64,000 nt of DNA, from assembly GCA_026014615.1 (NCBI GenBank), contig JAOZHZ010000028.1, positions 124,001 to 188,000 on the forward strand, written 5' to 3'. Below, one piece after another: positions 58,484 to 63,086 of this stretch; position 1 is the first letter of the stretch; each line of letters starts with the position of its first letter. A model generated the notes under the pieces. That model ran no database searches. It was not told where the DNA came from and was given only the letters and a program-made list of their open reading frames with translations. A program made the translations under genes and the position numbers. Source of the DNA: Candidatus Bathyarchaeota archaeon (lineage in GTDB: Archaea; Thermoproteota; Bathyarchaeia; Bathyarchaeales; Bathycorpusculaceae).

Positions 58484-58660
58484 ATGACAAACACAACCAA
58501 AGAGGTAAACGTAGACCCCTGCTTATGTGTTGGGTTTGAGACGGCATCAAGTTTTCACGTGAATGGTTGGCAAAACTGGAGTTTTCTCCTAAGGAAACAG
58601 GTTTTCCTTGGAGAGTTAGAACCTTGTTTGTGTATGACATTTCATGAGGTGCGAAAATGA
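58484..58660 (+). CDS. Small cysteine-containing protein coupled to the NifX-like gene
   Basis: From ATG 58484 (GGTGA 5 bases upstream) a 58-residue protein with two PCLC motifs (VDPCLCVG and LEPCLCM). Its stop overlaps the next start by 4 bases (ATGA), which favours a real, coupled gene. No family recognised; the paired Cys could hold a metal centre. Confidence 0.45.
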   Translation: MTNTTKEVNVDPCLCVGFETASSFHVNGWQNWSFLLRKQVFLGELEPCLCMTFHEVRK

Positions 58661-59031
58661 AAATATGTGTAAGCGCAACATCAAACAGTATAGATGCGCA
58701 GTTAGACCCTCGCTTCGGTAGATGCGCCTACCTACTAATTGTAGACACTGAAACACTACAGTTTGAAGCCATTTCAAACATGGCTGCAGGTGCCACAGGC
58801 GGCGCAGGAATTCAAGCTGCACAAACCGTAACAAAAACAGGTGCAAAGTTAGTCATAACTGGAAATGTTGGACCTAACGCCTTCAACGCTTTATCTGCAG
58901 CCGGCGTAGAAATCATAACTGGAGCCTCTGGAACAATCAAAGAAGTCGTCGACAAATTCAATAAAGGCGAATTAAAAAAAACTGACGCGCCTACAGTGCG
59001 TAATCATTTCGGAATGGGCGGACAAAGATGA
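58657..59031 (+). CDS. NifX/NifB-type iron-molybdenum cluster-binding protein
   Basis: Dinitrogenase-FeMo-cofactor family (PF02579): KICVSATSNSIDAQLDPRFGR at the start and VITGNVGPNAFNALSAAGVEI. Proteins of this family hold Mo-Fe-S clusters, including the bacterial orange protein. It is followed by a pair of Fe-S MinD ATPases, as in ORP gene clusters. Confidence 0.9.
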   Translation: MKICVSATSNSIDAQLDPRFGRCAYLLIVDTETLQFEAISNMAAGATGGAGIQAAQTVTKTGAKLVITGNVGPNAFNALSAAGVEIITGASGTIKEVVDKFNKGELKKTDAPTVRNHFGMGGQR

Positions 59032-59106
59032 AACTAACCGCTAATCCAGCAGTTGTTACATCTAACAAACTAAACTTTTCACGCTGAGAGATTAAAAGTG
59101 GACAGG

Positions 59107-59250
59107 ATGGCTAATAGACTAATCTTCCTTTCAGAGGACGCGCTTGATAGATCACCAAAGTTAACGCAAGACTACCCAACGTCAACAATTAAAACCCTCA
59201 AAAAAGCAACTGCCGAATACGAGAAATTTAAAGGTCAATCAGAGCTATAA
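59107..59250 (+). CDS. Possible 47-residue protein inside the NifX/MinD cluster
   Basis: From ATG 59107 (or GTG 59098), NRLIFLSEDALDRSPKLTQD then a helical C-terminus. It lies between the NifX-like and first MinD genes, all on one strand, with 31 bases to the next start. Function unknown. Confidence 0.4.
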   Translation: MANRLIFLSEDALDRSPKLTQDYPTSTIKTLKKATAEYEKFKGQSEL

Positions 59251-59281
59251 CCGATTATATTGGCTTTAGGAGGAAAACTGA

Positions 59282-60118
59282 ATGATTATATGTGTTGCTA
59301 GCGGGAAAGGCGGAACTGGAAAAACCTCGGTAGCCGTCAACATGGCTGTTTCGGTTGGTAACGTTCAGCTTCTAGACTGTGACGTTGAAGAACCCAACTC
59401 CCATTTGCTTCTGAATCCAGAAATATACAAAACCGAGCCCGTTTACAGTTTAATCCCCCTCGTGAACCAGCAGTTGTGTACCCACTGCGAAAGATGCGCC
59501 AAATTCTGCCAGTACAACGCCATATTTGCTACGGCAGAGAAAACACTTGTTTTTCCCGAGCTATGTCACAGTTGCGGCGGATGCGCTATAATCTGTCCAC
59601 AAAAAGCAATCAGTTGGGAAAAAAATCACATCGGCACCTTAAAGTTTGGCAAAGCCGGCAATTTATCGCTTGTTTATGGGGAACTTGAAGTAAGCAAGCC
59701 GCTGTCAGTGCCTGTTATAAAAGCCGTTAAAAAACAGATGGTTACCAATTCCACTGTAATTCTTGATTCGCCACCTGGAACTTCGTGTCCGTTCGTGGAA
59801 ACAGTCAGCGGCAGTGACTTCTGTATTTTAGTTACCGAACCCACTCCCTTTGGTTTACATGACTTAAAGATAGCGGTTGAGGTTTTAAGAAAAATCGCGA
59901 TTCCTTTCGGCGTCGTTGTTAATCGTTCTGGCGTAGGCGACAACACCCTGTATGAATACTGCAAAAAAGAGAACATACGTATTCTGATGGAAATTCCCTA
60001 TCAGCGGAGAATCGCAGAGCTGTATTCGAAAGGGGTTCCGTTTAGTTTGGAAATGCCCGAATGGGAAGAGAAGTTCCAAGCACTATATGACAACGTAATG
60101 GAGTTAGTTGAAAAATGA
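59282..60118 (+). CDS. MinD/Mrp-type ATPase with inserted ferredoxin domain, copy A
   Basis: Deviant Walker A CVASGKGGTGKTSVAVNMA, then a two-cluster ferredoxin insert (CTHCERCAKFCQYNA and CHSCGGCAIICPQKA, residues 62-110) and a switch region LDSPPGTSCPF. Such paired ATPases act with NifX-like proteins in Mo-Fe-S chemistry. AGGAGG precedes the ATG by 8 bases. Overlaps copy B by 4 bases. Confidence 0.92.
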   Translation: MIICVASGKGGTGKTSVAVNMAVSVGNVQLLDCDVEEPNSHLLLNPEIYKTEPVYSLIPLVNQQLCTHCERCAKFCQYNAIFATAEKTLVFPELCHSCGGCAIICPQKAISWEKNHIGTLKFGKAGNLSLVYGELEVSKPLSVPVIKAVKKQMVTNSTVILDSPPGTSCPFVETVSGSDFCILVTEPTPFGLHDLKIAVEVLRKIAIPFGVVVNRSGVGDNTLYEYCKKENIRILMEIPYQRRIAELYSKGVPFSLEMPEWEEKFQALYDNVMELVEK

Positions 60119-60990: not shown

Positions 60991-61059
60991 CGCCCAAAAA
61001 TCGCGGGAACCGCAACGTTAATTTTTTGCTATTACCCAAATTGAAGTGGGGGTACGATA

Positions 61060-61230
61060 TTGGTTCATCAACTGATTGTTACAATTGACGACGAATTAAA
61101 GAACGCCATGAGCAAATACCCAGATGTTGATTGGGTTGCTGTTGCATTGAAATCATTTAAGGATTGTATACAACGGAAGGAACTTGCTGGAATGTACACA
61201 GGTCCTGTAGAAAAAGATTCCTGCACGTAA
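61060..61230 (+). CDS. Small VapB-like antitoxin, no toxin partner seen
   Basis: From TTG 61060 (GGGGGT upstream), the protein reads QLIVTIDDELKNAMSKYPDV, then WVAVALKSFKDCIQRKELAGM, as in archaeal VapB antitoxins. No VapC follows; the next gene is a radical SAM enzyme. The gene is short and lacks support by coupling. Confidence 0.5.
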   Translation: MVHQLIVTIDDELKNAMSKYPDVDWVAVALKSFKDCIQRKELAGMYTGPVEKDSCT

Positions 61231-61267
61231 CAGGCAGTTGTCGGAACTGGCAACTTTGCGGAATTCA

Positions 61268-62242
61268 ATGCAAATCGCTTTCGGTCCTGTCCCGTCTAGG
61301 CGTTTGGGAAAAAGCTTAGGGATAAATAATGTTCGACCAAAAGTATGTTCCTACTCCTGTATTTATTGTCAATTAGGAAAAACCAGCGAATGTACTATTG
61401 AACGGCAAGCTTTCTACCCCCTAAACGAAATTTACGATGAGGTTGCCAAGAAGGTTCATTATGTTTCTTTAATGAATGAGCGAATTGACCATCTTACTTT
61501 CGTGTCGGATGGAGAACCCACCTTAGACATTAACTTAGGTCGCGAGATATCCCGTCTCAAACAAATCGGGCTTCCCGTCGCCGTCATAACTAATTCCTCT
61601 CTACTTTGGCTTGAAGACGTTAGACAAGATTTGTTAAAAGCAGACTACGTTTCGCTTAAGGTAGACGCCCTCGACGAGGCTTTGTGGCGACGCATAGACC
61701 GACCTCACAAGACCTTACGATTAGATGCCATATTGAACGGCATTCAGAACTTTACTGAGTCTTTTAAAGGAACAGTTGTCACCGAAACCATGCTTGTAGA
61801 TGACGTGCAGTACGCGAACGAATTCGAACGGATAGCAGCTTTCTTGGCGACATTGAAAAAGCTGGACAGGGCATACATTGCGGTTCCAACTAGGCCACCA
61901 GCAGAGAATTGGGTTAAACCTGCCAAAGAAGAAGTGGTAAACGCTGCATATCAGGCTTTTTCTGAAAAGCTGGGTGTTGACAAAGTAGAATTTTTGATTG
62001 GTTATGAAGGAGCCGCCTTCGCGTTTACTGGAAATGCTGCAGAAGATTTGTTAAGCATTATGGCGGTGCATCCCATGCGAGATGAAGCTGTTAAGGAGTT
62101 TTTGTGGAAAGCAAATGCGGGCTGGCAAGTTATTGAGCGCCTTTTAGCTGCGGGTAAACTTGTTGAGTTAGAGTACGAGGGAAACCTGTATTATATGAGG
62201 AAACTGAACGGGAGAAAGGTCACACGTGAAAGTGCATCTTGA
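61268..62242 (+). CDS. Radical SAM protein (COG0731-like)
   Basis: The N-terminus FGPVPSRRLGKSLGINNV is characteristic of this family, followed by CSYSCIYCQLGK, the CxxxCxxC cluster motif. FVSDGEPTLD and a C-terminal winged helix are present. The reaction is unknown. The frame extends to 61238; ATG 61268 is the usual start. Overlaps the DUF89 gene by 17 bases. Confidence 0.88.
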   Translation: MQIAFGPVPSRRLGKSLGINNVRPKVCSYSCIYCQLGKTSECTIERQAFYPLNEIYDEVAKKVHYVSLMNERIDHLTFVSDGEPTLDINLGREISRLKQIGLPVAVITNSSLLWLEDVRQDLLKADYVSLKVDALDEALWRRIDRPHKTLRLDAILNGIQNFTESFKGTVVTETMLVDDVQYANEFERIAAFLATLKKLDRAYIAVPTRPPAENWVKPAKEEVVNAAYQAFSEKLGVDKVEFLIGYEGAAFAFTGNAAEDLLSIMAVHPMRDEAVKEFLWKANAGWQVIERLLAAGKLVELEYEGNLYYMRKLNGRKVTRESAS

Positions 62243-63086
62243 TTGTGTTCCATGTTTGCTGAGGCAGGCATTGGATGCTACAAAATTAGGTTCGGCTGAT
62301 GAGGCTACCCGTGAGATTGCTCTTCGACAAGTAATGCAGCATCTTTCCAATGCACAGTGGAACCAAACCACCCCCGAGCTTGCTACCAACGTACATAGGA
62401 TCATAAAAAAAGTAACAGGCAACGTTGACCCTTATAGCCAGTTGAAAGAGAAGTACACTCGCGTCGCCCTTGCGTTCTATCCGAAACTTGAAGCTATCGT
62501 TAAACAGTCAGAAGACCCGTTACTAACCGCAGCTAAGCTGGCTATTGCTGGTAACATAATTGATTTCGGACCAAAGGTGAACGTCAACTTGGAGCAAACT
62601 GTTGAAGCCGTTTTAGAGGATGACCTTGCGGTAAACGATGTCGGTAAACTGAAAGAATCACTTCTTAAATCTAAGAAGGTTTTGTATCTTGCTGATAACG
62701 CTGGGGAAACTGTCTTTGACAAGCTGTTGGTGGACGAACTGTTGAAACGGGATGCTGAAGTGACTTTCGCCGTGAAGGATGCCCCTATTTTGAATGATGC
62801 AACCTTTGACGATGCTGAAATCGCAGGAATCACAAAAATTGCCCACGTTATTTCCATCGGAACTGACTGTACTGGTGTGCTCTTTAGAGAATGCTCCCCT
62901 GAATTCCTCACGGAATTTGAAAACTGCGGCTTTGTGATCAGTAAAGGTCAGGGCAACTATGAATCTCTGAGCAATACATTGCATAAAGAAATTTTCTTTC
63001 TTCTAAAAGTTAAATGTCCACTCATCGCCGAAGATGTCGGAGTAAAAACAGGTTCTGCAGTTTTAAAACGAACCTACGTGGGTTAA
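62226..63086 (+). CDS. DUF89 (ARMT1-like) phosphatase, copy 2
   Basis: Same family as the gene at 39.4 kb: LDCVPCLLRQALDAT at the start, [17 protein letters not shown] and VKDAPILNDATFDDAE. It is translationally coupled to the radical SAM gene (17-bp overlap), so the two probably act together. It may remove a damaged intermediate or a phosphorylated by-product. Confidence 0.88.
   Translation: MKVHLDCVPCLLRQALDATKLGSADEATREIALRQVMQHLSNAQWNQTTPELATNVHRIIKKVTGNVDPYSQLKEKYTRVALAFYPKLEAIVKQSEDPLLTAAKLAIAGNIIDFGPKVNVNLEQTVEAVLEDDLAVNDVGKLKESLLKSKKVLYLADNAGETVFDKLLVDELLKRDAEVTFAVKDAPILNDATFDDAEIAGITKIAHVISIGTDCTGVLFRECSPEFLTEFENCGFVISKGQGNYESLSNTLHKEIFFLLKVKCPLIAEDVGVKTGSAVLKRTYVG

Follow-up and report, generated by a model that had tools for sequence, protein, structure and literature searches.

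The known cluster of the orange protein (ORP) is a Mo-Cu cluster, and to our knowledge the purpose of orange proteins is still open. One of the closest described systems to the one examined here is the ORP complex of Desulfovibrio vulgaris (Orp3/4/5/8/9); in its description, Orp3 and Orp4 are a MinD pair bearing ferredoxin motifs, ORP proteins receive Fe-S clusters from the MrpORP protein in vitro, and a cell-division role is put forward for the complex (PMC6345978). IssA of Pyrococcus furiosus stores thioferrate and has a cationic, Gly/Arg/Trp-rich C-terminal tail of 70 residues (PMC5524996). For Archaeoglobus, high expression has been reported for the NifX and CbiA genes AF2378-AF2380, with an Fe-Mo cofactor role suggested by the authors (PMC3949148). 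We analyzed a gene cluster at positions 58484 to 63086 of a 64,000-nucleotide stretch of DNA (the window) that is part of contig C8 of a Candidatus Bathyarchaeota archaeon draft genome (2.63 Mb in 29 contigs; 88.8% complete, 7.4% contaminated). It encodes a NifX-like protein, two ferredoxin-bearing MinD ATPases, a radical S-adenosylmethionine (SAM) enzyme (rSAM) and a DUF89 protein. Comparison of these sequences makes it likely that the cluster is a shortened version of an anaerobic operon of the ORP/IssA/NifX type that serves in Fe-S (metal-sulfide) handling.

The cluster was compared with a family sample of 90 genomes and a wider phylum sample of 398 genomes. Presence of the rSAM and of the second ATPase, MinD2, in a family genome was called at E ≤ 1e-60. 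Named genomes were also scanned, with at least 573 confirmed rSAM relatives as the outcome, of which the best 80 (52–68% identity; Archaea and Bacteria) were kept; the loci of these 80 averaged 12.9 kb, and many ended at a contig edge. Five of them (L045, L046, L048, L049 and L050) were the same DNA as family loci, leaving 75 independent loci. MinD and Mrp were told apart in the locus counts by ferredoxin motifs.

Genes of the cluster

The features from the control element through the rSAM gene are as follows:

58411..58456, +, 46-bp double-palindrome element before the apparently reduced operon; 1 mismatch to the pattern, position-weight score 41.3
58484..58660 (start 58475 or 58484), +, putative scar ORF ("PCLC protein"); first 10 mrp codons plus ~145 nt without match, running into nifX
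58657..59031, +, NifXa, NifX/ORP-domain protein; PF02579 (Nitro_FeMo-Co), 82.6 bits
59098..59250, +, 50-aa ORF, putative truncated IscU/NifU_N-type remnant; C-terminal scaffold tail
59282..60118, +, MinD1, Orp3/Orp4-like P-loop ATPase, two [4Fe-4S] motifs; Pfam
60115..60990, +, MinD2, P-loop ATPase, two [4Fe-4S] motifs; Pfam
61060..61230, +, small conserved protein ("VapB-like"); homologues in 2 other genomes
61268..62242, +, rSAM of the GPVPSRRLG family; PF04055 (Radical_SAM), 55.5 bits

The initial annotation of this DNA, made from the sequence alone, had named a NifX-like protein and two overlapping MinD ATPases with ferredoxin inserts and had likened this first part to ORP clusters. All three statements held. 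NifXa matched the NifX domain family, and its best solved relative was D. gigas ORP (2wfb, E 2.4e-20). MinD1 and MinD2, whose ORFs overlap, each kept the GKGGTGKT loop and two CxxCxxCxxxC motifs. The C-terminus of the window NifXa was HFGMGGQR, without an IssA-like Gly/Arg/Trp tail. Such a Gly/Arg(/Trp)-rich tail, about 10–20 residues long, was present on NifXa of nine of the 13 relatives read (window excluded; G086 among the nine); NifXa of G016 had a shorter tail, those of G024 and G066 had none, and that of G071 had a longer, different end.

A second NifXa copy on contig C23 of the same genome was 68% identical to the window copy (dN 0.213, dS 1.56, dN/dS 0.14). MinD1 was 76% identical in G016. 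Its dN was 0.145 and its dS 1.77; the corresponding values were dN 0.125 and dS 1.66 for MinD2, dN 0.178 and dS 1.59 for the rSAM, and dN 0.212 and dS 3.1 for the cluster DUF89 compared with G425. The dN/dS ratio was ~0.07–0.11 for MinD1, MinD2, rSAM and DUF89; these ratios and that of NifXa are rough because dS was high. Having found low ratios in all five genes, we concluded that the retained genes look constrained.

The rSAM probably starts at the ATG at 61268, not at the TTG at 61238. Its only invariant cysteines in 56 sequences were C27, C31 and C34 of a single CxxxCxxC site. NifB needs conserved cluster ligands beyond the CxxxCxxC site, and no further invariant cysteine that could provide them was found in those 56 sequences; NifB was also absent among the NCBIfam matches of the rSAM at E ≤ 1e-3. 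Nitrogenase cofactor assembly with NifB shares with the window an operon that combines an rSAM, a NifX-domain protein and NifH/MinD-superfamily ATPases, whereas the likeness of the two rSAM enzymes is that of the general fold only. No sequence relative in the PDB was better than E 0.07. The AF2 model of the rSAM had a pLDDT of 88.7, and its best Foldseek PDB matches were mixed (DesII, PFL activase, viperin, TYW1 and NifB, at ~12–19% identity), so that we did not assign a function from the fold. Our best guess is that the enzyme acts on a protein partner or on the cluster itself. A search of open-licence literature found nothing linking ORP, NifX or MinD with this rSAM or with DUF89.

Conservation of the module

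The rSAM was found in 17 of the 90 family genomes (19 at E ≤ 0.001) and MinD2 in 27. The genes around the rSAM in the 17 family loci were MinD2 (16 loci), NifXa (15), MinD1 (14), NifXb and Mrp (12 each), IscU (11), DUF89 (2) and "small C" (2), with several of the absences falling at contig ends. MinD2 was called in 15 of the 17 rSAM genomes, one of them cut by a contig end, versus 12 of the 73 others (Fisher p 4e-8); counting a contig-edge fragment in G056 brought the number to 16 of 17. The radical SAM enzyme of the initial annotation was therefore both present and co-conserved with the module.

Eleven loci from the 12 MinD2 genomes scored negative for the rSAM were compared. MinD1, MinD2, NifXa and NifXb were present in all 11, Mrp in ten and IscU in five. 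From the gene counts in rSAM-positive and rSAM-negative loci, we concluded that MinD, NifX and Mrp form the core of the module and that the rSAM is an accessory.

Among the best 80 named rSAM loci, 30 had NifX, 20 ferredoxin-MinD (at least two copies in 18), 18 an Mrp-like gene, 11 IscU, 25 a metallo-hydrolase and five DUF89. NifX or ferredoxin-MinD lay near the rSAM in 32 of these loci, or 28 of the 75 independent ones, counts made with no control scan for NifX/MinD frequency beside an unrelated gene. Additional genes, with names assigned by eye, belonged to two methyltransferase families (10 and 4 loci) and to Fur-like (4) and FeoB-like (4) types.

Small ORFs and gene loss

The initial annotation had treated the ORF at 58484 as a small PCLC-containing protein coupled to the NifX-like gene. 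Aligned with the promoter and first 10 codons of the G016 mrp gene, the DNA from 58411 to 58512 showed 82% identity over 102 columns (E 8e-22), and the start of the ORF matched the Mrp start of L028 at 9 of 10 residues. No Pfam or NCBIfam family matched the ORF, and the rest of it (58510–58656) had no significant match in six genomes except itself. In G024, where the cluster is also without mrp, there was no PCLC-type ORF between the control element and nifXa. On these grounds we rejected the idea that the ORF encodes a metal protein or a peptide substrate. Its end resembled the DPCLACATH region of hydrogenase (tblastn E 0.087), but too weakly for the similarity to be used.

The 50-aa ORF at 59098–59250 was 58% identical to the last ~31 residues of IscU-like proteins (L028 and L033; E 2e-7), and a full-length relative of these proteins (L041) matched NifU_N with 101.2 bits. 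By these alignments, both small ORFs are best explained as scars left by deletions of mrp and iscU. The gene order ahead of MinD1 in G016 is mrp, the gene for a hydrogenase large subunit, nifXa, nifXb and an iscU-like gene; the two remnants indicate that at least two losses shortened the window operon. Because the hydrogenase gene was present in only three of the 17 family loci, its former presence at the window locus is unsure. A misassembled deletion may have produced the shortened operon, but the order metK, cluster, DUF89 is common to the window and G016.

G024 kept the element before nifXa and had no mrp at the cluster; mrp lay behind a second copy of the element on another contig. The element stood directly before nifXa, with no mrp between, in L299 (G024:C84) and L307 (G031), as in the window. 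We read the window cluster as a reduced anaerobic module of the ORP/IssA-like kind, with an rSAM accessory and probably still under regulation, and as an example of an operon cut down while its control element stays.

The remaining small ORF, at 61060–61230, had homologues (50–53% identical) downstream of MinD2 in G056 (L032) and G062 (L186), with a ferritin-like gene between MinD2 and the homologue in G056. The ORF had no Pfam or NCBIfam match, and its neighbors were MinD2 and the rSAM gene, with no adjacent VapC; its earlier designation as VapB-like was not borne out.

The 46-bp element and an AsnC-type regulator

The control element, a conserved module upstream of mrp, has a TATA-like stretch with an imperfect palindrome on either side. 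In 20 of 22 loci compared, the mrp-upstream element had at least 30 of 47 consensus bases without gaps; L035 had 29, with a one-base shift seen by eye, and in L031 the element was absent. The search for further copies used a 46-base pattern drawn from mrp promoters with up to three mismatches, and the reversed pattern as the control. Four sites were found in the window genome (reversed control, 0). Two were on contig C23, before mrp-nifXa-nifXb and before another nifX gene, and two were in the window, before the scar ORF (58411) and before metK:

56216..56261, +, 46-bp double-palindrome, TATA-containing element upstream of metK; position-weight score 55.2
56457..57632, +, metK, methionine adenosyltransferase; TIGR01034, 560.8 bits (cut-off 309.4)

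The next position-weight score outside these two sites was −1.9. The metK gene begins 195 nt from its element and also lies behind the element in G016 and G058, which would make it a member of the same regulon.

The family sample contained 48 sites in 27 genomes (reversed control, 0). They preceded mrp (19), nifX genes (18, window scar included), metK (3) and cdhA (2; the cdhA of L041 scored 1178.5 bits, cut-off 781); four of the other six were within ~35 bp of a gene for an AsnC-type regulator, and two were unexplained. Since mrp promoters were the source of the pattern, its 19 matches before mrp were expected, and the other 29 constitute an independent test. The two unexplained copies, in G015:C157 (L292 6736) and G005:C35 (L290 519), had no recognized downstream gene.

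In L007 (contig C23, 9099–11416), a gene for a Cys-rich AsnC-type regulator is divergent from mrp-nifXa-nifXb, with the 46-bp element between them. The regulator (E ≤ 1e-30) was present in 41 of the 90 family genomes, including all 27 with the element, and none of the 49 genomes without it had the element (Fisher p 5e-13, uncorrected for relatedness of the genomes). The Cys-rich tail, seen in the sequence of a relative, suggests a metal or Fe-S sensor. The regulon that the element appears to define is new and testable.

Comparison with described systems and the likely ligand

Fe-S (or Ni-Fe-S) handling is favored here over a Mo-Cu cofactor, because the partners include IscU and Mrp, most relatives read have Gly/Arg NifX tails, and the element is shared with CO dehydrogenase genes. 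The ORP complex has in common with the window a NifX-domain ORP protein and two MinD-type ATPases with two [4Fe-4S] motifs each, and with fuller relatives of the window cluster an Mrp-type protein. It differs in several respects. The Mrp of L041 matched the P-loop half of the MrpORP model (NF041136; 342 bits, below the cut-off of 450, covering 1–257 of 365) and had no C-terminal fused NifX (ORP) domain, and at the window locus mrp itself is lost; many relatives add IscU and rSAM; the regulator is of the AsnC type instead of sigma54; the host is an archaeon; and a Mo-Cu cluster is hypothetical here. IssA shares the NifX-type domain and, with most relatives read, the Gly/Arg(/Trp) tail, but the relatives' tails are much shorter, and here the domain is found amid ATPases, a scaffold and an rSAM.

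A true ORP system, in which the MinD pair would load a Mo-Cu-S cluster onto NifXa and the general Mo supply would provide the molybdenum, is in our view unlikely. It would account for the D. gigas ORP as nearest solved structure and for ferredoxin motifs arranged as in Orp3/Orp4, and the suggestion of an Fe-Mo role for AF2378-AF2380 speaks for molybdenum as well. The initial annotation had added that moaABC elsewhere in the window supplies molybdenum cofactor. Genes for moaA, a moaB-like protein and moaC do lie in a row on the minus strand (27508–29477), with moaA and moaC confirmed by NCBIfam and moaB recognized by eye only; the proposed tie did not stand, as these genes are ~29 kb from the cluster, on the other strand and unlinked to it. 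The products of moaABC make pterin, not a Mo-S cluster. Furthermore, IscU and Mrp are Fe-S factors, NifXa of most relatives read has a Gly/Arg tail, and CO dehydrogenase genes were found behind the element, where no Mo enzyme gene was recognized.

There is also a small chance that the module stores or buffers iron sulfide, as thioferrate of the IssA type, instead of assembling clusters for enzymes. The Gly/Arg tails and the published description of IssA (PMC5524996) are consistent with storage, as is a ferritin-like gene in four of the 17 rSAM-positive and eight of the 11 rSAM-negative loci; however, the tails are a fraction of the length of that of IssA and the window copy has none, and ATPases and an rSAM are not obviously needed for passive storage.

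Several results count against Fe-S handling by a reduced operon, the reading that we prefer. Twelve of the 27 MinD2 genomes have no rSAM, and the rSAM is therefore not essential to the module. IscU was absent from six of the 17 rSAM-positive and six of the 11 rSAM-negative loci, and the only IscU-like protein seen elsewhere in the window genome was 36% identical. The window NifXa is tailless, with an ORP as its nearest solved structure, and the Fe-Mo suggestion for Archaeoglobus points the same way. The link between regulator and element consists of co-occurrence and position within one family of related genomes.

For Fe-S handling, the mechanism that we infer, including the ligand, the direction of transfer, the binding of the regulator and the rSAM substrate, would be as follows. 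In fuller relatives an IscU-type scaffold and an Mrp/NBP35 carrier would build and pass on Fe-S units, NifX-domain proteins would hold anionic iron-sulfide species, and the two ferredoxin-bearing MinD ATPases would use ATP hydrolysis and electrons to drive loading or release. The accessory rSAM may modify a partner protein or cluster, with SAM supplied through metK. The Cys-rich regulator of the AsnC/Lrp type is probably a sensor of Fe-S or metal status and probably binds the 46-bp double palindrome before mrp, nifX, metK and CO dehydrogenase genes. The window locus would have lost mrp (and whatever came after it, which in G016 is the hydrogenase gene), nifXb and the greater part of iscU, keeping the element, NifXa, MinD1, MinD2 and rSAM; with mrp-nifXa-nifXb surviving on C23 behind the same element, the two loci likely supply the system together. 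An archaeal version of the ORP system that the shared element would tie to IscU, Mrp, a recurrent rSAM, CO dehydrogenase and SAM synthetase offers clients that can be tested and a candidate sensor. It is improbable, but conceivable, that the rSAM, the NifX proteins and the two ferredoxin-ATPases together assemble an unusual metal-sulfide cofactor independently of nitrogenase, for anaerobic enzymes such as CO dehydrogenase or hydrogenase; a new Fe-S sensor, the Cys-rich AsnC-type protein, would then switch this assembly line by way of the 46-bp element, and metK would feed the rSAM.

DUF89 and the downstream gene

Two genes follow the rSAM gene:

62226..63086, +, DUF89/ARMT1-like metal-dependent phosphatase; PF01937, 251.9 bits (cut-off 25), full length
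63310..64000 (past the window end), +, FAD-dependent CoA-disulfide-reductase-like protein; Pyr_redox_2, 126.4 bits

The cluster DUF89 protein shares the full-length Pfam match with the DUF89/ARMT1-like phosphatases 2ffj and 2g8l, both solved relatives (2g8l, E 1.1e-45). It scored under the equivalog cut-off of the NCBIfam damage-control phosphatase (204.1 vs 440). The protein and the ordinary DUF89 of family genomes are two separate paralogues. Some DUF89 protein was present in 77 of the 90 family genomes, mostly of the ordinary type (~33–41% identical to the cluster copy). The window type (45–100% identity) was present in five, all of them rSAM-positive (Fisher p 1.4e-4). A tree separated the window type from the ordinary family copies (100/100), but had long branches and no wider outgroup and was not relied on. 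The window also contains a second, ordinary archaeal DUF89 gene at 39350–40183, whose product is 36% identical to the cluster DUF89.

The rSAM-DUF89 pair of the initial annotation was correct as to both identities, but the pairing was seldom conserved: DUF89 adjoined the rSAM in only two of the 17 rSAM-positive family genomes, in one of which (G016) its frame was broken. With this and with the PCLC ORF a remnant, the gene neighborhoods did not bear out the six genes as one unit. Window-type DUF89 was close to another NifX gene in G081 and G082, and not in G024 (on an 8-kb contig). In the phylum sample, nine genomes besides the window's own matched the cluster DUF89 at E ≤ 1e-55; none of these homologues was beside cluster genes, apart from one weak 37-bit MinD2 match (L209), and some of their contigs were short. 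Ordinary DUF89 loci, examined as a control, were likewise away from cluster genes (11 of 11). Four of the nine genomes carried the rSAM elsewhere (E ≤ 1e-60), compared with 57 of 398 overall, so that the link outside the family is weak. We therefore rejected DUF89 as a core member and consider it loosely linked to the module.

The rarity of this adjacency and the isolated phylum homologues would also fit a separate metabolic unit of rSAM and DUF89 (for example, nucleotide or cofactor damage control) that lies downstream by chance, as would the 60 of 80 named rSAM loci with no ferredoxin-MinD in reach, a number due in part to contig ends. We regard such a unit as doubtful: MinD2 accompanied the rSAM in nearly every family genome that had it, window-type DUF89 was confined to rSAM-positive genomes, and DUF89 directly precedes MinD1 in two Thermoplasmata loci (L064 and L077). 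A decaying operon without function in the window genome is very unlikely, because the loss or truncation of mrp, nifXb and iscU and the broken DUF89 frame in the nearest syntenic relative (G016) are set against low dN/dS in the retained genes, intact ORFs, a kept control element, and the same arrangement of element and nifXa without mrp in G024.

The CoA-disulfide-reductase-like gene was present in one of the 17 family loci, that of the window itself, and in nine of the 80 named rSAM loci; it belongs to a common family and is a possible member of the cluster. Beyond it, ~1.9–2.7 kb past the window end (L006, 11883–12674), are a gene for a Gly/Arg-rich 'MPRGDRTGPWGAGPMTGRAAGYC' protein, which we take to be DUF5320-like, and then another NifX gene. 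A pair of a 'MPRGDRTGPWGAGPMTGRAAGYC'-type gene and NifX recurs near the rSAM in some relatives. In L038 (5056–5589), a CO dehydrogenase alpha gene lies within the cluster and has lost its middle in frame (177 aa vs ~780).

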